A stretch of DNA of 64,000 nucleotides from Mariniblastus sp. (GTDB lineage: Bacteria; Planctomycetota; Planctomycetia; Pirellulales; Pirellulaceae): contig WTFU01000206.1 in NCBI GenBank assembly GCA_011523945.1, positions 1 through 64,000 of the forward strand, written 5' to 3'. Each line of letters starts with the position of its first letter. Within the stretch, counting starts at the first letter, position 1. A program made the translations under genes and the position numbers. The notes below the pieces were generated by a model. The model saw nothing but the letters and a program-made list of their open reading frames with translations. It was not told where the DNA came from and did not search any database. This document shows, piece by piece, positions 13,179 to 22,362 of the stretch.

Positions 13179-14900
13179 ATGCTTTCTTTCAAACCTCCCT
13201 GCCGTTTTAGGTACAGGATATTGATTGGCTGCTTAGCACTTGCAAGTGTCGCTTGCGGGTCGAACCTTCTTGCGCAGACAGACAAACCTGCTCCGACAAA
13301 TTCAGTGAACTCGCGAGCCGGTTCTGTTCAAAATAAAATTCGGGAAGAGTTGCTTCGCAGCAGGCGATACTCTCCACGGCAAAGAGTCGAAAGTACAACC
13401 ACCTCCCAAGGTGGTTTGCCTAACACTCTGGAAGCACGCATCCGGCAGGAATTGCTAAGGCGGCAGCGCGGCCGATCGAACCCAAAAGCGGTCAGGACTC
13501 CGTCCGCGATTTCCCCTTCTCCGCAAACAGTGTCGACAACAAAGAACTTTGCCCTAGCCAAGAAAACCACAAGCTCAGATCAAACTTCCATTCAAGTTCA
13601 GCAGACGATGCCTAAATCTGAAAGCGGCGTCAAAAAATCTCGGCCCACTAATTTCGACAACAACGCGATTGCACAAGACTCACCTGCCTCCCTGACTCTT
13701 AATTCTCCTGAGTTAGTATCAAACGAATTTCAAGACCTCGATTCGTTCGTCAAATACGCGTTTGACAACCACCCAGCTTTGGTTGTCTCTGAGGCAGAAA
13801 TACAAGCAACTAAACACAAAGCCTTGCAAGCAGGGCTCGCCCCCAACCCCCAACTCGGCCTGTTTATTGATGAGCTTGGCAATGAAAATGATCCTGGTTT
13901 ATGGGGAGCCTACATTCAACGGAAACTAATTCGTGGCGACAAACGAGCCATTGCTCGTAAAGTAAAGAACCGTGAAGTCGACGTTCGCGAGATCAAAAAT
14001 GAAGCTCTCAGACTCAGCATTAAAACTGAAATCAAACGGGCGTTCTATCAAGTCTTAATCGCACAAGAAAAACTTAACCTTGCGACCCAGCTATCCGCAG
14101 CTCAACAACAGGCGGTCAGCCAATCACGCCAATTATTCGAATCGGGTGAAACTCCGAAAACAGATCTCCTCCAAACCGAGCTTCAGGCTCAACGTGCATT
14201 GGTTCTGTTGAGTGAAGCCCGCGTCATTCATAAAAATAGCTGGCGGCAATTAGCAGCCTCCGTCGGCTCGCCTAACCTTGAACAACGGCCTGTTTTAGGC
14301 ACGTTTGAACCCATTACCCAGCCTCTCTCGTTCGAAACCTGGCAACAAAAAATTCTAGAAAACAGCCCGGAGTTATTAGCGGCTAAAGCCGAAGTCGAGC
14401 GTGTTAAAACAACGATCGATCAGGAAATCGCTCAGTCCGTCCCGGATTACCAAACGCAATTCTCGTTAGGCCGCGATTCAAATTCAAATCACTTTTTTAC
14501 AGGGGTTCAACTTCAGGTGCCGTTGCAAATCTATGACCGAAACCAAGGCAGTATTGCTGCCGCCAAGTCGAATCTAGTCGCCGCACAAAACCGAGTACGT
14601 CAAATCGAACTTCGATTATCGAAACAACTGGCAAGTGAATTTCAAAAATACGAACTTTCACGTGTGAAAATTGACCTCTATCAATCTGAGCTGATTCCCA
14701 ATGCCGAGAAAACACTAGACTTGATAAAACTGGGCTACCCGGCAGAAGTTAGCTTTTTGAAACTCGTCTCCGCTCAACAAACCCTTATTGATCTGACTAT
14801 TAATTACCTAAATTCCATTGAAGCACTATGGAAGACACGTTTAAAAATCGAAGGTTTACTACAAGACAACAGCCTGGATTCCCAAACGATCCAAGATTGA
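13179..14900 (+). CDS. TolC/CusC-like outer membrane efflux protein
   Basis: 573 residues with an N-terminal export signal (hydrophobic residues about 14-32; a cysteine at 26 might be lipidated). The outer-membrane efflux protein fold covers about residues 185-560 and includes the typical duplicated helical repeats with long Gln/Ala-rich coiled segments. Residues 35-180 form an unusual low-complexity extension rich in Ser, Thr, Arg and Pro with two copies of an IRxELLRxxR motif (residues 54-63 and 88-97). It is the first of three genes, followed 174 bases later by the adaptor and then the RND pump, so it should be the outer-membrane channel of that complex. Confidence 0.92.
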   Translation: MLSFKPPCRFRYRILIGCLALASVACGSNLLAQTDKPAPTNSVNSRAGSVQNKIREELLRSRRYSPRQRVESTTTSQGGLPNTLEARIRQELLRRQRGRSNPKAVRTPSAISPSPQTVSTTKNFALAKKTTSSDQTSIQVQQTMPKSESGVKKSRPTNFDNNAIAQDSPASLTLNSPELVSNEFQDLDSFVKYAFDNHPALVVSEAEIQATKHKALQAGLAPNPQLGLFIDELGNENDPGLWGAYIQRKLIRGDKRAIARKVKNREVDVREIKNEALRLSIKTEIKRAFYQVLIAQEKLNLATQLSAAQQQAVSQSRQLFESGETPKTDLLQTELQAQRALVLLSEARVIHKNSWRQLAASVGSPNLEQRPVLGTFEPITQPLSFETWQQKILENSPELLAAKAEVERVKTTIDQEIAQSVPDYQTQFSLGRDSNSNHFFTGVQLQVPLQIYDRNQGSIAAAKSNLVAAQNRVRQIELRLSKQLASEFQKYELSRVKIDLYQSELIPNAEKTLDLIKLGYPAEVSFLKLVSAQQTLIDLTINYLNSIEALWKTRLKIEGLLQDNSLDSQTIQD

Positions 14901-15074
14901 CCGTTGAACGTGACTCTAGCGAAACAGACTCAATTACTACCGAGGTTTCGCAAAGTTGAATTGAATTTTCATCAGTACGCCGTTCCGCGTTATAATAAAT
15001 TCAAGCTCACGTTCAGGAACCTTGAATTCACTGCAACAAAATAGCATCCGGTCAGTTTTTGACAGACTCGTAAC

Positions 15075-16469
15075 ATGAACCCGCAAAGAACTAACATTTG
15101 GCCGACACTCGCGTTGTGCACGCTCCTGCTTGGGATTGGTGGGGCAACTGGATTTTTGCTTCGCCCTGTTATTCTCCCGCCGCCTTCCGTAAAACCGCAG
15201 GAAGCCGCAGTCGAAGAAGCCTCGAGCCATGGCAGTACAACAATTGTTGAGATTCTTGAATCCACCATGGAGAACATGGATCTAAAGACCGGCAAATTTG
15301 AAGTTCGTGACTACGCTCAAAAAATCCGGATTCCGGCAAAAATTGTCGAACGAATTCCACAAAATCGACGACGCGTTACTTCTCCTATCGGAGGCCACGT
15401 CACCGAGGTTCTGATTGCGGAAGGCCAGGCGATTAAACCGGGCGACAAGTTATTTGAATTCCGAATCACCGATGAATCTTTGGCAAAGGCCCAAATTGGA
15501 CTGCTTGAACTTTTAAAACAGATTGATGTTACCCGGCAAAAGATTGACCGACTCAAACCTCTCGTTGAGAGCGGAGTCGTTGCACGGAAACGACTACTTG
15601 ATCTCGAGCTTGAGCAAAGCGCACTCGAACAGCAACTGGACGCAAACCGACAAGAGCTTGTCCAACTCGGAATGCAACCTGACGGCATCGAAAAACTGGT
15701 AAACCAAAAACAACTAATGCAGAGCATTGAGATTTTCGCCCCCAACCTCCCGGATGGCTCAAGCACCTCCAAAAAACTCGATGATCAGCAATATTACACC
15801 GTCGAGTCCATCCAGGCACTTGAAGGAACCAACCAGGCGTTTGGAGCAAGTCTGTGCGAATTGACTTACCATGACGACCTACTGCTGGAGGGGCTTGCTT
15901 ACGAATCGGACATCGAAAAAATCTCGAAAGCGAATGAAGCTGGCTGGAAATTCTCGGCTCAATTCGGCGAAGGAGAGTCGATGGAATCGCGCGACAATTT
16001 GAAGCTCTTTAAAATTGAAAATCACGTCGACAGTCAATCGCAAACTTATCCGATTTTTGTCGAGATCAAGAATGAGATTGTCAGCAAAATGACGGACGAT
16101 AACGATCGAGACTACGTCAACTGGAAATTTAAACCCGGCCAACGAGCTCATCTGGAATTTCCAATTGAAACATGGAAGGACCAGATCGTGGTTCCTCTCA
16201 GTGCGATCGCACGCGAAGGCCCCGAAACATTTGTATTTTTAAAAATCAACCACACCCATGAAAGTCCCGAGGGGACGATGCATGAATTTCAAAAAACCCC
16301 CGTCAAAGTCTTACACACGGATAAGTACTATGCCGTACTCGCGCGAAGTATTCAGCTCGACCTTCTCGAAAACTACGCACTTGACCAAGCCTATAAATTA
16401 AATCTCGCACTTAAACAGGCAGCGGGCGGGGGCGGAGGAGCACACGCCGGACACAACCACGCGCCTTGA
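15075..16469 (+). CDS. RND efflux periplasmic adaptor subunit (CusB/HlyD type)
   Basis: 464 residues. A single N-terminal membrane segment (about residues 9-31) is followed by the split lipoyl/barrel-sandwich halves: VTSPIGGHVTEVLIAEGQAIKPGD near 96-119 is the classical biotinyl-lipoyl-like strand pattern. A helical hairpin lies near 135-210 and beta-barrel domains follow. The tail is glycine-rich and ends in a histidine cluster (HAGHNH), suggesting metal binding. It sits between the TolC-like and RND genes. By family the protein links the inner-membrane pump to the outer-membrane channel; metal specificity is not deducible. Confidence 0.93.
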   Translation: MNPQRTNIWPTLALCTLLLGIGGATGFLLRPVILPPPSVKPQEAAVEEASSHGSTTIVEILESTMENMDLKTGKFEVRDYAQKIRIPAKIVERIPQNRRRVTSPIGGHVTEVLIAEGQAIKPGDKLFEFRITDESLAKAQIGLLELLKQIDVTRQKIDRLKPLVESGVVARKRLLDLELEQSALEQQLDANRQELVQLGMQPDGIEKLVNQKQLMQSIEIFAPNLPDGSSTSKKLDDQQYYTVESIQALEGTNQAFGASLCELTYHDDLLLEGLAYESDIEKISKANEAGWKFSAQFGEGESMESRDNLKLFKIENHVDSQSQTYPIFVEIKNEIVSKMTDDNDRDYVNWKFKPGQRAHLEFPIETWKDQIVVPLSAIAREGPETFVFLKINHTHESPEGTMHEFQKTPVKVLHTDKYYAVLARSIQLDLLENYALDQAYKLNLALKQAAGGGGGAHAGHNHAP

Positions 16470-16575
16470 TTAGGACCTTGTGATTCCAATTATTTATCCA
16501 ATTAGAACTACCTTGAAATTTTGCATTTCAGTTGTAACGCGGACTTGATTCGCCGCAAAAGAAACGGTTAATTCT

Positions 16576-19500
16576 TTGCTAAACGCCATCATCCAACTAG
16601 CGCTGCGTCGGCGGGCCTTTGTCTTGTGCCTTGCCGTGGCTGCCATAATTACCGGGTTGATGGCAATTGAAAGACTTCCGATTGATGTTCTGCCTGATCT
16701 GACCCGCCCCCGGGTGAGTATCATTACGGAGTGTCCGGGCATGGCTCCGGAAGAAGTGGAACGGCAAGTAACAATTCCACTCGAATCGGCCGTAAGCGGG
16801 GCCTCCGGTATTATTGCCGTGCGAAGCAAATCGGATGTTGGACTGTCCGTCATCAACGTGGAGTTCGATTGGGGGACCGACATTTATCGGTCACGACAAA
16901 TTGTTACCGAAAGAATCTCGCTGGCAGAATTCGATTTACCACGGGGAGTTCAACCACGACTTGGGCCACTTTCGTCCTTACTTGGCCAAATTATGTTGAT
17001 CGGCATGTGGAGCGACACCAACTCCACCGAGCCAATGGAAATCCGTACTCTTGCAGATTGGATCGTAAAAAAGCGACTGCAACAGATTAAGGGCATCTCC
17101 GAAGTAATCACGATTGGTGGCGGACGCAAACAATACCAGGTGTTAGTCGAACTCCACGAACTGCATAAGTACGAAGTCACGCTCTCTGATATTCAAACTG
17201 CATTGAATTCGAGTAATCTCAACGTCAACGGCGGTTATGTGGATCGAAACTCTCAGGAGTTTCTGGTACGAGGAATTGGGAGAGTCGATTCTGTTGAACA
17301 ACTGAAGCAAATCGTCGTCCGTGCTGATAGTAAACGGGCTGTGCTATTGGAAAACGTAGCCCAAATTCAGCCCGTAGCCCAAGCTAAGCGCGGCGATTCC
17401 TCGATCAATGGAAAACCGGGGGTTGTTCTAACCATTTTGAAACAGCCGCGCACCGATACACGCAGGCTGTCGGATGACGTTGTTGCAGCACTCGATGAGC
17501 TACGGCCCAGCCTTCCAGAAGACATCCAACTCGAGGTCACGTATCAACAACGTGAGTTTATCGACCAAAGTGTCTGGAACGTTGTCGATGCACTAAGGGA
17601 TGGCTCAATTCTGGTTGTATTCATTTTATTTCTGTTTCTGTTTAACGCCCGAACCACAATTATCACCCTTACCGCAATTCCAGTTTCAATCGTTATCACT
17701 GCTCTCGTTTTTCGCTACTTTAATTTGTCGATCAACGTCATGACTTTGGGTGGCATCGCGATTGCACTTGGTGAACTTGTAGACGATGCGATCGTGGATG
17801 TAGAAAATATTTACCGACGACTCCGTGAAAACTCGAAATTAGAAAGCCCTCGCCCGCGGATCAAAGTTGTTTTCGAAGCCAGCGTCGAAGTTCGCAACTC
17901 AATTATCATTAGCACGCTGCTGGTAATTCTTGTCTTCGCTCCTCTTTTTGCCCTCAGCGGAATCTCTGGCCGCATGTTTATCCCTCTGGGCATTTCCTAT
18001 ATCGTCTCGATCATCGCTTCAACTATCGTTTCGCTGACGTTGACCCCGGTACTCTCGTATTACCTACTCAACTCGAAAAGCATGGCAAAGACTAAATCAA
18101 GCGACAGTCTTGTAGTGAGATCATTGAAACGCGTATTCACTCCGCTAATTATACTCAGCATGAAACGGATTCCGTTTTCTTTGATGCTGATCTCAACGCT
18201 CATAACAGTTGGAATTACCGGCCTGTTAGCCTATCGAATGGGGCAAGAATGGATTCCAAAATTTGACGAAGGCTCCGCCCAGTTGAACCTTTTTGCTGCC
18301 CCCGGCACATCACTCAAGACCTCTCTCGAGATTAGCGGAAACGCAAATCGCCAATTACGAAAATTCCTTTACAGTGACGAAAACCCAGATGGCTTCATCC
18401 GGTATTTCACCGCCCGCTCTGGACGTGCTGAAAATGATGAACATGTAATGGGCGTAAACACCACTGAATACACCATTTCTCTTATCGAAAATCATGGGAA
18501 AACTCGTAACGAAATCATCTCAATCCTCGAACAGGCTGCCAATCTCGTCCCCGAGGTAGAAAACGAAACAGATCAACCGATCCGGCATCTCATCAGCCAT
18601 TTGATTTCAGGCTCGACGGCTGAAATAGCTATCAAACTATTTGGGGATGACCTCGATACACTGGTTCGCAAGGGGAGTGAAATCCGGGATGCCATCAGTA
18701 CAGTTCCGGGAATCAAGCCTCCAAAACTGGAGCAACAACAAATCATTCCGCAACTCCGAATCAAAATTAATTATACGCAATTGGCTGCCTATAAATTAAC
18801 AGCAAGAAAAGTATTCGATTTGGTAGAAACCGCGATGCTGGGAAAAGTGGTTTCGCAGTTAATTGAAGGCGAGCGTCGATTCGAAATCGTCATGCGGTTC
18901 CCCGATGAATACCGCGAGAATTTTGAATCGCTGGAACGGATTCCAATTGAACTGCCTGATGGAGGCGTCATTCCACTCTCCAGCGTCGCTGACATATACG
19001 AATACGGTGGCCCCAACACAATCAATCGGGAAGATGCCCGCCGAAGAATCGTCGTACGCGTTTTTACCGAGAACGCCGATTTAGCCACTGCCGTGGCGGC
19101 AATTCGGAAAAAGATTGATGATACCATCGAACTACCCGAAGGATATTTCATCAGTTATGGTGGACAATTCGAAGCCCAACAAACGGCAACCCGACAAATT
19201 CTAATCTTGAGCTTAGCTTCGCTCGCCGTTGTCTTTGTTTTACTTTACTCCGCATTCTCTTCTTTCAACATTGCACTACAAATCTTAATTGCCTTGCCAG
19301 TCGCATTCATTGGAGGAGTGATAGCGCTGGTACTTACTGATCAAGTATTTACAACCGCCGCGATGGTTGGCTTCATTTCACTCGGCGGCATTGCTGCCAG
19401 AAATGGGCTGTTGCTGGTTTCGACTTACCTAACGGCAGGAAAACCGGTCGATCCCAACATCCGAGTAAGTAACCTCACCAATTCTGCCTGCCACGACTCC

Positions 19501-19755
19501 GAGCATGAAATCACCTCAGAAACAATCCTCAACGGCAGTCTCGACCGCCTCACTCCCGTGCTCATGACAACATTAACCACCGGCATTGGCTTACTTCCAT
19601 TGATTGTGGAAGGCAACTTACCCGGCCGGGAAATTCTCTATCCGGTTGCCACAGTAATTGTGGGCGGCTTGATTACATCGACCGCTTGCGAATTCCTCAT
19701 TCGACCCGGCCTGTTCTTCTTTTTCGGCCCGACCAGAACCCGCACCGACGCATAG
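16576..19755 (+). CDS. Heavy-metal-type RND efflux permease (CusA/CzcA family)
   Basis: 1059 residues, the usual RND length, with twelve expected membrane segments: one at 12-30, a cluster near 340-500, one near 540, and a second cluster near 870-1040. The N-terminus RLPIDVLPDLTRP and GMAPEEVERQVTIPLE are characteristic of the heavy-metal RND family. The TM4 region reads GELVDDAIVDVENIYRR, with the acidic proton-relay residues. TTG 16576 is chosen as start because it restores the conserved N-terminal MLNAIIQLALR segment; the next ATG would cut into the first membrane helix. Substrate could be Cu, Zn, Co, Ni or Cd. The B12 riboswitch begins about 120 bases downstream, but is probably a separate unit. 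Confidence 0.95.
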   Translation: MLNAIIQLALRRRAFVLCLAVAAIITGLMAIERLPIDVLPDLTRPRVSIITECPGMAPEEVERQVTIPLESAVSGASGIIAVRSKSDVGLSVINVEFDWGTDIYRSRQIVTERISLAEFDLPRGVQPRLGPLSSLLGQIMLIGMWSDTNSTEPMEIRTLADWIVKKRLQQIKGISEVITIGGGRKQYQVLVELHELHKYEVTLSDIQTALNSSNLNVNGGYVDRNSQEFLVRGIGRVDSVEQLKQIVVRADSKRAVLLENVAQIQPVAQAKRGDSSINGKPGVVLTILKQPRTDTRRLSDDVVAALDELRPSLPEDIQLEVTYQQREFIDQSVWNVVDALRDGSILVVFILFLFLFNARTTIITLTAIPVSIVITALVFRYFNLSINVMTLGGIAIALGELVDDAIVDVENIYRRLRENSKLESPRPRIKVVFEASVEVRNSIIISTLLVILVFAPLFALSGISGRMFIPLGISYIVSIIASTIVSLTLTPVLSYYLLNSKSMAKTKSSDSLVVRSLKRVFTPLIILSMKRIPFSLMLISTLITVGITGLLAYRMGQEWIPKFDEGSAQLNLFAAPGTSLKTSLEISGNANRQLRKFLYSDENPDGFIRYFTARSGRAENDEHVMGVNTTEYTISLIENHGKTRNEIISILEQAANLVPEVENETDQPIRHLISHLISGSTAEIAIKLFGDDLDTLVRKGSEIRDAISTVPGIKPPKLEQQQIIPQLRIKINYTQLAAYKLTARKVFDLVETAMLGKVVSQLIEGERRFEIVMRFPDEYRENFESLERIPIELPDGGVIPLSSVADIYEYGGPNTINREDARRRIVVRVFTENADLATAVAAIRKKIDDTIELPEGYFISYGGQFEAQQTATRQILILSLASLAVVFVLLYSAFSSFNIALQILIALPVAFIGGVIALVLTDQVFTTAAMVGFISLGGIAARNGLLLVSTYLTAGKPVDPNIRVSNLTNSACHDSEHEITSETILNGSLDRLTPVLMTTLTTGIGLLPLIVEGNLPGREILYPVATVIVGGLITSTACEFLIRPGLFFFFGPTRTRTDA

Positions 19756-19832
19756 CTCAAAATTTAAATTTTGCGGCCGTCGACAGCGAATCATCCAGTA
19801 AAGATCGGCCACCTGAAATACCGCGTAGGCAA

Positions 19833-19861
19833 TTGTGAATCATACAATTCGTTGTTATTAT
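19833..19861 (+). promoter_or_regulatory. Predicted sigma-70 promoter of the cobalamin riboswitch
   Basis: TTGTGA at 19833-19838 and TATTAT at 19856-19861 are separated by 17 bases, close to the bacterial consensus TTGACA-N17-TATAAT. Transcription would then start near 19868, just before the first conserved riboswitch segment. It overlaps a small inverted repeat (AATTGT/ACAATT). This is motif-based only. Confidence 0.5.
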
Positions 19862-19874
19862 ATCACCACTTGTT

Positions 19875-20082
19875 TTGGTGACCGCTGCACTTTTGCATGT
19901 GGTTAAAGGGAATTCAGTGTGAATCTGAAACGGCCCCGCCGCTGTAACCCGCGTGAAATCATCTCATTCTAAAAGCCATTGTTGAGACGTAAGAATATCG
20001 ACGAGAAGGCGAGATGGATTTGCGGGAAGTCAGAATACCTGCCATTTCAATAATCCGAATTTGTTCTGCGCGGGACGAACAA
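19875..20082 (+). promoter_or_regulatory. Cobalamin (adenosylcobalamin-type) riboswitch
   Basis: All conserved blocks appear in order: GGTTAAAGGGAA (19901-19912), GTGTGAATCTG (19917-19927), the B12 box GCCCCGCCGCTGTAACC (19933-19949), AGCCATTG (19974-19981) and GGGAAGTCAGAATACCTGCC (20024-20043). A hairpin TTGTTC/GAACAA (20061-20066 and 20077-20082) follows; its loop contains GCGGG (20070-20074), complementary to CCCGC (19935-19939) in the L5 loop, forming the kissing-loop contact that transmits ligand binding. The DUF1559 gene starts 22 bases after this hairpin, so control is probably at translation initiation; no intrinsic terminator is visible. Cobalamin binding should turn the downstream genes off. 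Confidence 0.93.
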
Positions 20083-20104
20083 ACCGAACATTAGTTTCAA
20101 AAGC

Positions 20105-20917
20105 ATGTATTACTTACATAATGCGGAGAAGGTACGCGCGAATCGCGGGTTCACGCTTGTCGAATTATTAGTGGTCATCGCGATCGTCGGCATTCTGATT
20201 GGGATGCTAATGCCAGCCGTACAAAGTATACGGAACGCGTCACGTCGGATTGCTTGCGGCAACAATCTCCATCAAATTTCTATCGCATTGCAAAACTATC
20301 ATGCGGCGCACGAAGCATTTCCAATCGGTGGCATTGAATGGCGGACTCGAAACGATCCCACCCGCCGCCAACTCGCCTGGAGTGTGTTCTTACTACCCTA
20401 TCTCGAACAAGAAAACGTTTGGCAGCAACTCGACCTCAACACTGCTTTCGACAGCCCTGAAAACGCTGAGGCAGCGGCTACTATCATTAACGTTTTTGTC
20501 TGCCCTAGCAGTCTGCGAGGACATCAAACAGTAAACGCTCGCGGCCCCTGCGACTACGGTGGCATTTATGGCGAACGCATCACATCGCCCAACAACCCTC
20601 CCAAAGGAACAATGCTTCACGATATCGCCATTGCACTTCGCGACGTTACCGATGGATCGTCTCATACACTTATCGTTGCCGAAGACTCTGGATGGTCAGA
20701 TGGGCAGTGGATCAATGGGAGGAACATCTTTGATCAAGCATTCCCAATTAATCAGGCTCCCAGTTTTGAAAATGACATTCGCAGCGAACATCCCCAGGGA
20801 GCGAATGCAGCCAGATGCGATGGCAGTGTTGGCTTTCTTTCCGAAAGTATTGATTTGCAAGTGCTTGCTGCACTTTGCACTCGAGCGGGAGGCGAAACAA
20901 ATACGACAAGCGACTAG
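20105..20917 (+). CDS. DUF1559 protein with prepilin-type N-terminus
   Basis: 270 residues. A prepilin cleavage/methylation signal is evident: G15-FTLVELLVV followed by a hydrophobic helix to about residue 36. The DUF1559 body follows, with the typical CGNNLHQISIALQNYH segment at about 49-64, YLEQENVW, a C-P-S-S motif, and the closing HPQGANAARCDGSVGFLS. DUF1559 is hugely expanded in planctomycetes; the proteins are thought to be pseudopilin-like or surface-anchored, function mostly unknown. Here it is directly under a cobalamin riboswitch and is followed 86 bases later by a PEP-CTERM protein. I infer repression by cobalamin and a role in envelope corrinoid handling. No clear Shine-Dalgarno is seen. 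Confidence 0.93.
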   Translation: MYYLHNAEKVRANRGFTLVELLVVIAIVGILIGMLMPAVQSIRNASRRIACGNNLHQISIALQNYHAAHEAFPIGGIEWRTRNDPTRRQLAWSVFLLPYLEQENVWQQLDLNTAFDSPENAEAAATIINVFVCPSSLRGHQTVNARGPCDYGGIYGERITSPNNPPKGTMLHDIAIALRDVTDGSSHTLIVAEDSGWSDGQWINGRNIFDQAFPINQAPSFENDIRSEHPQGANAARCDGSVGFLSESIDLQVLAALCTRAGGETNTTSD

Positions 20918-21003
20918 TAACTACGGCAGCTAATTTTTCAATGCAATCCAACAGATCACTCGAATCCCCAATCAATTCACTCAGCAACCTTGATAATCTA
21001 ACT

Positions 21004-21903
21004 ATGAATTTACGCAACCTCCTTTTCATCGCTTCTTTCTTCTTAACTACCGGAACATACGCCCAGACAACAGTCGTCGACTTTGAATCGCTACCCGTTC
21101 CAGCCGAACAGTTCTTCAATGGCGACACGAATGCTTCGAGTCCCTATCGAGATAATTTTTCAATCACCGGGACGCGGGATAACTTTGGTGAAACCGAGTT
21201 TCTCCAACTTTGGGAATCAAGCAATGTCGAATTTTTCAATGGCTACACACCCGGCTATAGTTCCTGGAATGGCTTTAGCTGGTCCAAAGTTACCGACACG
21301 ACCACCCCCGGCTTTGCCAATCAATATGCTTCTTTCGCAGGCGGAGGAAGCGATGGGGCAGGGGGGACGATTACGGGAACAAATTACGCAGTCGGTTTTG
21401 GTAATCAGAGTTTTTTTAATTTACCCGAATTAGCCACCGTCGAATCGATTGATATTACAAATACGACCTATACCGGCATTTCAATACGTGACGGAGATGG
21501 ATTTGCCAAAAAATTTGGTGGCACCTCCGGCGATGACGAAGATTTTTTCATGTTGACTCTAACAGGCTTCGAAGACGTCAATCTTGGCGGCGGCAGCACC
21601 GGAGCGATTGATGTCTTCCTGGCAGACTATCGATTTAGTGACAACTCCAAAGACTACATTCTTGATTCATGGAATCAGGTTGATTTAACAAGTCTTGGAT
21701 CAGCTCGATCCGTTGAATTTTCCTTTACGACCACCGACAACAGTGCCTTTGGCCCCAACACTCCGTTATTTGTCGCAATTGATAACTTGAGTTACTCCAT
21801 CAACTCAGTTCCCGAACCAACAGCTCCGTTGTTACTTTCGGTATGGGCCTTAGCCCTCGTCGCCCGACGATCAAGAAAACTGAATACACTTAACTCCGAC
21901 TGA
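21004..21903 (+). CDS. DUF4465-like PEP-CTERM exported protein
   Basis: 299 residues from ATG 21004. This start puts a signal peptide at the N-terminus (residues 1-21, ending TYAQ); the frame is open further upstream to 20875 but would overlap DUF1559. The mature part resembles DUF4465: WNGFSWSKVTD, YASFAGGG, SIDITNTTYTGISIRDGDGFAKKFGG (split here as ITNTTYTG and GDGFAKKFGG), VFLADYRF, SWNQVDLTSLG and TPLFVAIDNL. The C-terminus has the PEP-CTERM sorting signal VPEPTAP, a hydrophobic stretch and a basic end RRSRK, so it is probably processed by an exosortase-like system and surface-located. It shares the riboswitch with the DUF1559 gene. I recall DUF4465 members in corrinoid-uptake loci of Bacteroidetes, which needs checking. 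Confidence 0.85.
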   Translation: MNLRNLLFIASFFLTTGTYAQTTVVDFESLPVPAEQFFNGDTNASSPYRDNFSITGTRDNFGETEFLQLWESSNVEFFNGYTPGYSSWNGFSWSKVTDTTTPGFANQYASFAGGGSDGAGGTITGTNYAVGFGNQSFFNLPELATVESIDITNTTYTGISIRDGDGFAKKFGGTSGDDEDFFMLTLTGFEDVNLGGGSTGAIDVFLADYRFSDNSKDYILDSWNQVDLTSLGSARSVEFSFTTTDNSAFGPNTPLFVAIDNLSYSINSVPEPTAPLLLSVWALALVARRSRKLNTLNSD

Positions 21904-21915
21904 ATTTACCCTCGA

Positions 21916-22362
21916 TTAAAACTCAACCTTCGATTGACAGACCGCTGTATTACTGCGATTCCAAAGCCAAAGAATCAGCACACCGGTCGCGGCTACCGGC
22001 ATCCCCTCGCCAATTATCCAGTAAAGCGGCATAGGAGCCGAGATATCAATCCCCAACATTGTCAAACCGAGAGCCACATGCAGAAACCCGAACAATCGCA
22101 CTAGCGGCCAATAGCGAATCAGATCAAAGGAAACAAAAAACATCAATGCTCCATGCACTGCGTAGAGCAACGACGTCGACCTTGCTAGATAAAACGCAAT
22201 CGCAACATCGGGAAACTCACCAAGACCAAGCTGTTGATGCAAATAATTGATTAACCCAGCTGGAAAGAATATTGGCACTGCGGCCAATAACAATCCAGCT
22301 CCAGTTACTGCGAGAACCACTCGCAAGAAACGAAAGGGAACAGACTGCTGAAGTGGATTCAT
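21916..22362 (-). CDS. Small four-helix membrane protein, hypothetical
   Basis: 148 residues with four hydrophobic segments (about 12-32, 54-78, 84-103 and 110-130), so an inner-membrane protein. No catalytic motif is visible. It converges on the riboswitch-controlled PEP-CTERM gene with 12 bases between stops and is divergent from the Rieske oxygenase gene, so it is probably its own unit. I do not recognise a named family. Confidence 0.8.
   Translation of the reverse strand: MNPLQQSVPFRFLRVVLAVTGAGLLLAAVPIFFPAGLINYLHQQLGLGEFPDVAIAFYLARSTSLLYAVHGALMFFVSFDLIRYWPLVRLFGFLHVALGLTMLGIDISAPMPLYWIIGEGMPVAATGVLILWLWNRSNTAVCQSKVEF

Follow-up and report, generated by a model that had tools for sequence, protein, structure and literature searches.

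A cobalamin riboswitch locus with DUF1559 pseudopilin and DUF4465 genes: a candidate corrinoid-capture module in Mariniblastus and related planctomycetes

Organization of the riboswitch locus

The window, a 64,000 nt stretch of Mariniblastus sp. DNA (assembly GCA_011523945.1, contig WTFU01000206.1, positions 1 to 64,000), contains a cobalamin riboswitch followed by genes coding for a DUF1559 protein and a DUF4465 protein (Table 1). The ATG of the DUF1559 gene lies 44 nt downstream of the riboswitch, and 86 nt separate the two genes.

Table 1. Features of the riboswitch locus, in window coordinates
Feature	Coordinates	Strand	Basis
Promoter-like site, TTGTGA-17 nt-TATTAT	19833..19861	+	no better than chance
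Cobalamin riboswitch aptamer, RF00174	19859..20060	+	covariance match, 86.6 bits
Hairpin TTTGTTC...GAACAAA, GCGGG in loop	20060..20083	+	columns unchanged between the window and seven close relatives
DUF1559 protein, 270 aa, prepilin signal RGFTLVELLVVIAIVGI, H-X9-DG motif	20105..20917	+	Pfam matches
DUF4465 (BtuJ-family) protein, 299 aa, hydrophobic N-terminus, C-terminal VPEP, helix and basic tail	21004..21903	+	PF14717
DUF4465 cobamide-binding-type jellyroll domain	21256..21789	+	profile match, residue alignment

Riboswitches of the cobalamin family repress downstream genes when cobalamin is plentiful. The original prediction placed a complete member directly before the DUF1559 gene, and a covariance search confirms this, with a match to the full RF00174 model (1–189 of 189; E 5.7e-20; gathering score 31.5 bits). 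It is the sole gathering-level Rfam match in the window and the sole RF00174 match found in the draft genome, where 150 of 223 first-look candidates were scored. A promoter had also been proposed before the riboswitch; the site is promoter-like but no better than chance, three such sites being found in 19700–22000 where 2.6 are expected. The loop of the hairpin abutting the aptamer is complementary to an aptamer CCCGC near 19934, and the hairpin is probably the expression platform, acting through a kissing loop; taken alone, its stability is not unusual (z 0.50).

The first gene product matches both PF07596 (DUF1559, Pfam short name SBP_bac_10; 171 bits) and PF07963 (N_methyl; 34.1 bits) over their cut-offs, in agreement with its earlier description as a DUF1559 protein with a prepilin signal. 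Its AlphaFold2 model (pLDDT 90.8) has a long N-terminal helix (residues 18–69), and a Foldseek search returned nothing below E 0.001, with pilins weakly topping the list (best E 0.35). Like GspG and geopilin pseudopilins, DUF1559 has an N-terminal helix and a cleavage motif, but unlike them it has a C-terminal domain for which no solved-structure relative is found below E 0.001, and DUF1559 N-termini resemble GspG and GspH with equivalog scores below the cut-off. The prepilin signal, DUF1559 domain and H-X9-DG motif are common to its PF07596 paralogues, of which there are many, with 24 to 77 matches in each of four genomes counted; in Planctopirus limnophila they form the largest paralogue group, with 68 members of unknown function, two of them essential in a screen (PMC10632474).

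Profile searching gives a full-domain match (150.8 bits against a cut-off of 25) for the second gene product, in which DUF4465-like motifs had been noted; it is the only DUF4465 copy detected in the genome. DUF4465 is the BtuJ family, in which B12 binding has been demonstrated for eight members, including one, 'Pan', from Mucisphaera calidilacus (PMC13398666). The closest known systems are BtuJ1 and BtuJ2 of Bacteroides thetaiotaomicron (DUF4465, IPR027828) and D5EK51 of Coraliomargarita; BtuJ1 and BtuJ2 act on vesicles and tested members bind B12 (PMC12751083). The window protein shares with BtuJ its domain family, riboswitch control and predicted fold, an augmented jellyroll matching 9HMU (E 1.6e-19, TM 0.83 by target) and BtuJ1 (9FCT). 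It also shares three of the four conserved hydrogen-bonding residues, BtuJ1 Y146, N241 and T242 corresponding to Y156, N252 and T253, but has F256 for the B12-contacting Y245, a position occupied by Phe in 9 of 39 aligned DUF4465 sequences. By analogy with the relatives characterized in PMC13398666, the window protein may bind B12.

The ends of the protein also differ from those of BtuJ. There is no Cys within the first 35 residues, and a BtuJ-type lipoprotein signal is thus absent. The hydrophobic N-terminus suggests that the protein is exported. The C-terminus (VPEPTAPLLL...ARRSRK) resembles PEP-CTERM in its VPEP, helix (273–296) and basic tail, and the protein may be located at the cell surface. 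For its original description as an exported PEP-CTERM protein, profile searches give no PF07589 hit at E 0.001 and, for the NCBIfam PEP-CTERM family NF038120, a score of 26.2 against a cut-off of 80.

Riboswitch-linked DUF1559 genes in other planctomycetes

Among the riboswitch matches listed for the family Pirellulaceae, which are not every match, 136 loci were compared (141 less five with under 1000 nt downstream). Of these, 78, representing 35 of 47 genera, have a DUF1559 gene less than 700 nt downstream of the riboswitch, and 39 loci from 14 genera have both DUF1559 and DUF4465. The pairing is therefore conserved in other planctomycetes rather than absent from them. Among the relatives that combine the riboswitch and both genes are Roseiconus nitratireducens, Roseimaritima sediminicola and Zavarzinella formosa (loci L326, L361 and L373). 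Of 49 loci in which the riboswitch comes with DUF4465, ten lack a DUF1559 gene at that distance; in three of the ten, the operon holds one of the main clade at another position. Riboswitch orientation was also checked with a regular expression, which proved too strict, passing 73 of 141 loci; the others show the GGT...AGGGAA core by eye in the strand given, as far as it extends.

A phylum sample of 60 loci was hand-picked for family spread among the matches listed, 57 of them extending 1 kb or more downstream. Seven of the 60 have DUF1559 no more than 700 nt from the riboswitch, all in families f2 and f3, which belong to the window's order or class; outside the class no DUF1559 in the sample adjoins a riboswitch. 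In f3, a family of that class, the two genes are behind separate riboswitches, DUF1559 and DUF4465 (6 and 3 of ten loci, respectively; both in none). We found no DUF1559 pseudopilin described in the literature as a partner of a riboswitch-DUF4465 gene.

The riboswitch-linked DUF1559 proteins are also distinct in sequence. In a phylogenetic tree, 79 of them fall into three clades (57, 10 and 15 members) containing none of 26 other DUF1559s, the largest taking in three extra sequences that lie further inside riboswitch operons; two of 110 sequences, both riboswitch-linked, were omitted as under 120 aa. The 26 controls comprise seven from flanks and those from 19 of 30 fetched control loci, as only these 19 matched a profile built from riboswitch-region proteins, and the 11 unmatched loci are unplaced. 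The largest clade carries the motif W[IVA]N[GA].N.F in 47 of 57 members, compared with 0 of the 26 controls and 0 of 25 in the other two riboswitch-linked clades. Unlike other DUF1559s, the window protein belongs to a riboswitch-linked clade with a motif of its own, and we propose that it is a B12-dedicated paralogue.

Given the abundance of DUF1559 genes, one could simply happen to sit behind a riboswitch, but such a chance neighbourhood is extremely improbable and is ruled out by the locus survey and by clade specificity. The 78 of 136 loci compare with an assumed background of 2% (p about 1e-94, the loci not being independent), no riboswitch match is present in the flanks of about 1.5 kb of the 30 control DUF1559 loci, and no prepilin motif is found within 3 kb in any of 21 riboswitch-BtuB loci.

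DUF1559 is the constant element of these loci and the partner genes vary. The window operon contains no known B12 synthesis or transport gene, as had been noted, but relatives can have them: a cobQ-type gene follows DUF1559 in 10 of the 78 loci, and in one (L107) the Pfam-assigned order is cobQ-cobO-cobU-btuF-btuC-btuD-cbiB. In eight of the 78, judged on C-termini, DUF1559 precedes other proteins with a PEP-CTERM-like tail. In eight of the 78 no plus-strand gene is called within 500 nt after it, but L152, which is among these eight, does contain an overlapping ORF whose product has a VPEP tail. The PEP-CTERM-like tails, together with the GspG- and GspH-like N-termini, would fit a secretory role, DUF1559 being the pseudopilin in a type II secretion-like apparatus for DUF4465 export and having no contact with the vitamin, with import by another route. 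We regard this as rather unlikely, as the cobQ-type genes, the cob and btuFCD genes of L107 and the loci with no following gene called argue against it, and a purely secretory role leaves the absence of BtuB from DUF1559 loci unexplained.

The constancy of DUF1559 beside variable partners could instead point to DUF1559 itself as a corrinoid-binding or relay protein, with DUF4465 and the other PEP-CTERM-like proteins as optional accessory captors. The clade motif favors this reading, but its absence from the other two riboswitch-linked clades and the failure of Foldseek to recognize a B12-binding fold in the DUF1559 model make it unlikely.

Pseudopilin and BtuB genes at DUF4465 loci

The named DUF4465 loci compared here are the 80 best of 503 and lean towards the window DUF4465. 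A pseudopilin is present in 42 of them, a BtuB-like receptor in 20, neither in 18, and both in none, with kinship ignored. Of the 80, 23 are the same DNA as loci of the family sample; the 57 remaining loci include 23 with a pseudopilin, 20 with a BtuB-like receptor, and none with both (p 1.7e-6, kinship ignored). The 42 pseudopilins comprise 29 strong and six weak DUF1559 matches in Planctomycetota (one of the weak ones, in L343, being just an end fragment of a DUF1559 at the border of the locus), four in Verrucomicrobiota recognized by motif, and three unnamed, with phylum labels assigned from record titles. BtuB-like denotes a match to a profile of 21 riboswitch-linked receptors, and the receptors of L321 and L150 were verified by Pfam. 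DUF4465 is present in one of 21 riboswitch-BtuB genomes, the 21 being those among the sampled loci, and in 94 of 178 others (p 1.2e-5, kinship ignored).

BtuB-type loci carry a riboswitch of this family too (21 such loci in Pirellulaceae), and in other phyla they likewise have DUF4465 as a neighbor, but the window has a pseudopilin for the receptor; unlike BtuJ, the window DUF4465 gene has no adjoining BtuB or BtuCDF gene. This suggests that the DUF1559 pseudopilin stands where other bacteria keep the gene for the BtuB outer-membrane transporter.

B12 uptake is classically described as needing active transport across the outer membrane. The B12-dependent methionine synthase MetH is encoded in 24 of 28 genomes of the genus, including all 16 of high quality, and CobS in 0 of 28. 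No TonB plug was found in the window's own genome (92% complete) or in 13 sampled genus drafts, and for a BtuF-type protein (Peripla_BP_2) there is no match in the former and one, below cut-off, in the latter, these absences resting on draft genomes. With MetH present and none of the others detected above cut-off, an uptake route of some kind is to be expected. Not every member of the genus has the module, as the riboswitch was found in 22 of 28 genomes and 10 of the 13 sampled genomes have DUF4465; no genus genome showed more than one cobalamin riboswitch.

These observations bear on whether the module could serve capture and storage only, with DUF4465 hoarding cobamides at the surface or on vesicles and the pilin acting as an adhesion or display element outside transport. 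The action of BtuJ1 and BtuJ2 on vesicles (PMC12751083) and the window operon's want of a transport gene are compatible with this, but the need for an uptake route and the single riboswitch per genome count against it, and we consider it improbable.

A candidate corrinoid-capture module

The reading that we favor, and consider reasonably probable, is that the window operon is a corrinoid-capture module induced by B12 starvation, with a pseudopilin in the genomic place of BtuB. When cobalamin is plentiful the riboswitch would repress the operon; when it is scarce, the DUF4465 protein would be made and exported; its C-terminal tail would keep it at the surface, and its jellyroll loops would bind cobamides as in BtuJ. 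The co-made DUF1559 pseudopilin would be cleaved and assembled into a pseudopilus-type structure that either displays the DUF4465 binder or moves cobamide inward, and in the genome it would occupy the TonB receptor's position. Points that weigh against this reading are F256, the riboswitch-DUF4465 loci lacking a nearby DUF1559, the separate riboswitches in f3, the incomplete spread of the module in the genus, the 18 named loci with neither partner, and the non-significant family-wide exclusion of DUF4465 and TonB plugs. The original prediction of a surface device for corrinoid binding or uptake is partly supported: the capture role is well supported by the riboswitch, the B12-binding DUF4465 relatives, and the frequency of MetH without CobS, a TonB plug or an above-cut-off BtuF-type protein, and display, anchoring or assisted import by the pseudopilin is consistent with the comparative data, all of its mechanical roles being putative.

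This pseudopilin-linked module is possibly a new way of gathering B12, judging from the sequences. As the riboswitch names the ligand, it offers a direct handle on one DUF1559 branch, and B12 acquisition becomes testable in bacteria with a B12-dependent methionine synthase and no detectable TonB receptors.

A second pseudopilin family is found at DUF4465 loci of other PVC bacteria, and in one locus (L357) Peripla_BP_2 and FecCD genes come after a prepilin-like gene. A broader proposal, possible but doubtful, is that TonB-independent, pseudopilin-based B12 import replaces BtuB in planctomycetes and some Verrucomicrobiota, and was assembled on two or more occasions from distinct pseudopilin families. 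If so, the DUF1559 paralogues of planctomycetes would by extension form a set of pseudopilins dedicated to the uptake or capture of particular ligands.

Two wider comparisons were not retained. A family-wide exclusion of DUF4465 and any TonB plug is not significant (45 of 95 versus 63 of 104, p 0.066), and a comparison of riboswitch-BtuB with riboswitch-DUF1559 genomes (overlap 1) was set aside because the single locus obtained from many genomes makes it partly trivial.

A surface-protein gene is common to the BtuB-type locus L321 and the pseudopilin loci L320, L349 and L355.

Organization of the locus

A full-length cobalamin riboswitch is the sole gathering-level match to Rfam in the 64-kb window, and is followed by a DUF1559 gene and a DUF4465 gene. 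The neighbours downstream are a convergent gene of 148 aa and a Rieske oxygenase gene. In its own draft genome (5.4 Mb) the riboswitch and the DUF4465 gene were each detected once only, and there are 30 DUF1559 matches. The window shares with seven close relatives an unchanged hairpin 3' of the aptamer, whereas the leader beyond it drifts; the hairpin's loop (GCGGG) is complementary to CCCGC in the aptamer, with which it could pair. We read this hairpin as the putative kissing-loop expression platform of this riboswitch class.

Features of the cobalamin riboswitch locus (window positions)
Feature	Position	Strand	Remarks
TolC-type, HlyD-type and CusA/CzcA-type genes (RND efflux set)	13179-19755		immediately upstream of riboswitch
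Cobalamin riboswitch	19859-20060	+	Rfam covariance match, 86.6 bits
DUF1559 gene with prepilin signal	20105-20917		starts 44 nt past riboswitch
DUF4465 gene	21004-21903		86 nt past DUF1559 gene

The locus is most simply explained as a corrinoid-capture module, induced by starvation, in which a dedicated pseudopilin occupies BtuB's genomic position. We place high confidence in corrinoid capture as its role, and moderate to low confidence in the mechanism of the pseudopilin, which might display the binder, export it, or move the vitamin inwards.

Riboswitch-linked genes among relatives

We analyzed 140 riboswitch loci of relatives together with the window, and counts are from the 136 with at least 1 kb downstream. 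In 78 loci (35 of 47 genera) DUF1559 starts at most 700 nt from the riboswitch, in 49 (18 genera) there is a DUF4465 no more than 4 kb away, and the two occur together in 39 (14 genera). Ten of the 49 riboswitch-DUF4465 loci lack DUF1559 within 700 nt; three of these ten (L159, L175 and L181) carry a main-clade DUF1559 at another place in their operon. The 78 riboswitch-linked DUF1559s are followed by DUF4465 (39), a cobQ-type gene (10), other proteins with PEP-CTERM-like tails (8), other genes (11) or the contig end (2); in the remaining eight no + strand gene is called within 500 nt, although one of these (L152) has an overlapping ORF ending in a VPEP tail. The L107 operon reads cobQ, cobO, cobU, btuF, btuC, btuD and cbiB (Pfam). 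The remaining riboswitch targets are classic ones: a TonB receptor at 21 loci (a cluster with one member confirmed by Pfam), and a class I ribonucleotide reductase and MetE at one locus each (Pfam), which fits a B12 regulon. The proteins with PEP-CTERM-like tails in the DUF4465 place behind riboswitch-DUF1559 (L063, L085, L092, L093, L155, L162, L183, L184) are candidate new corrinoid binders.

In a wider phylum sample, DUF1559 beside the riboswitch is confined to the window's class (7 of 60 loci, one with DUF4465), and in another family of that class DUF1559 and DUF4465 stand behind separate riboswitches. The pairing did not turn up in a literature search that covered few subscription papers or preprints; in PMC13398666, a word search returned none of 'planctomycet', 'pilin', 'PEP-CTERM' and 'DUF1559'.

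In a tree of 108 DUF1559 sequences, the 79 riboswitch-linked members group into three clades of 57, 10 and 15 (supports 0.855, 0.999 and 1.0), the largest count taking in three that lie deeper within riboswitch operons; none of the 26 other DUF1559s falls inside these clades. Judged by this sequence grouping, the DUF1559s tied to the riboswitch are no random set of paralogues. In the largest clade, 47 of 57 members carry the motif W[IVA]N[GA].N.F, which none of the 26 controls and none of the 25 members of the other two clades has; GER[IV] is present in 33 of 57 versus one of 26 controls. No riboswitch match was found in the available flanks of 30 control DUF1559 loci. At L195:8756-9841 (-) a riboswitch-linked DUF1559 carries an in-frame fusion to a DUF1289 domain that precedes its prepilin signal (Pfam); the same fusion is seen by eye in the alignment at L176 and L184.

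The DUF4465 protein

Mucisphaera calidilacus is a planctomycete, and IPR013424 is PEP-CTERM. PMC12751083 and PMC13398666 report cobalamin binding for BtuJ1, BtuJ2 and six more DUF4465 members, one of the six from M. calidilacus, with structures 9FCT, 9I2L and 9HMU; PMC12751083 also gives IPR013424 in 88 of 824 DUF4465 members and names four conserved hydrogen-bond partner residues. The structure model of the window protein (pLDDT 89.0) matches 9HMU and BtuJ1 most closely, and the protein is predicted to share the fold of known binders. It retains three of these four residues (Y156, N252, T253), whereas the fourth, Tyr245, is F256; this column holds Tyr in 30 and Phe in nine of 39 aligned sequences. 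The DUF4465-corrinoid link put forward in the original prediction is borne out by both papers (PMC12751083, PMC13398666), in which DUF4465 is a known B12-binder family. The window protein is a further member of it, and the novelty lies in the DUF1559 partner.

Multi-domain loci, namely L189:4209-9920 (-) and others within L003-L031, have two to five DUF4465 domains in open frames of ~1000-2600 aa. Several of these giant frames stand behind riboswitch-DUF1559, and in the one put through Pfam three DUF4465 domains are accompanied by a dockerin and a planctomycete extracellular signal; they are possible multivalent B12 sponges.

B12 supply, pseudopilins and receptors

MetH was found in 24 of 28 genomes of the genus (16 of 16 high-quality) and the cobalamin riboswitch in 22 of 28; of 13 genomes sampled for DUF4465, 10 have it. 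CobS is found in none of the 28, and the 13 sampled drafts yielded no TonB plug domain and no Peripla_BP_2 match over cut-off (one lies below it). From this combination the genus appears, as far as the drafts show, to be B12-dependent with neither completing synthesis nor the usual importers visible. DUF6580, in the window's own genome (G000:C7:21671-22183) and 25 of 28 genus genomes, stands behind cobalamin riboswitches in relatives (L101:2322-2903 and L113:5500-6090 by Pfam; L039, L102 and L144 by BLAST cluster), and is a candidate for the inner-membrane step as a B12 transporter.

The best 80 of 503 DUF4465 loci in the GTDB set were compared for pseudopilins and BtuB-like receptors. The 46 labelled Planctomycetota have 29 strong DUF1559s, six weak pilin-like matches and no BtuB-like receptor, and the 31 of other named phyla have 20 BtuB-like receptors and no strong DUF1559. 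Counting all prepilin-type neighbours, 42 of the 80 have a pseudopilin, 20 a receptor, none both and 18 neither (p 9e-9, without phylogeny correction). The set is only partly independent, 23 loci being the same DNA as the family sample; without them the counts are 23, 20, 0 and 14 (p 1.7e-6, likewise uncorrected). Verrucomicrobiota loci split four and four, and 10 of 16 named loci scanned have a cobalamin riboswitch.

A second pseudopilin family sits at DUF4465 loci outside the window's planctomycete family. The eight compared (L324, L331, L332, L344, L349, L355 and Verrucomicrobiota L319 and L320) are alike over ~220-280 residues (27-79% identity), with similarity to the window DUF1559 mainly across 50-100 N-terminal residues. 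N_methyl exceeds the Pfam cut-off in L319, L331, L332, L344, L349 and L357, DUF1559 only in L349 among those scanned (41 residues), and the L320 pseudopilin has no Pfam match over cut-off. Two pseudopilin families in one setting favour function over an inherited neighbourhood. L316 and L357 were added by eye, as was an RWHG...GGYGYN...GWFG motif in some members; in L357 the prepilin-like gene precedes Peripla_BP_2 and FecCD genes.

The gene order is DUF4465, TonB receptor and surface protein in L321, and DUF4465, a homologue of that surface protein and pseudopilin in L320. This surface-protein family is common to BtuB-type and pseudopilin-type B12 loci (L157, L191, L320, L321, L349, L355); members scanned have no Pfam domain besides PEP-CTERM, and some share a DFAVFEN motif seen by eye.
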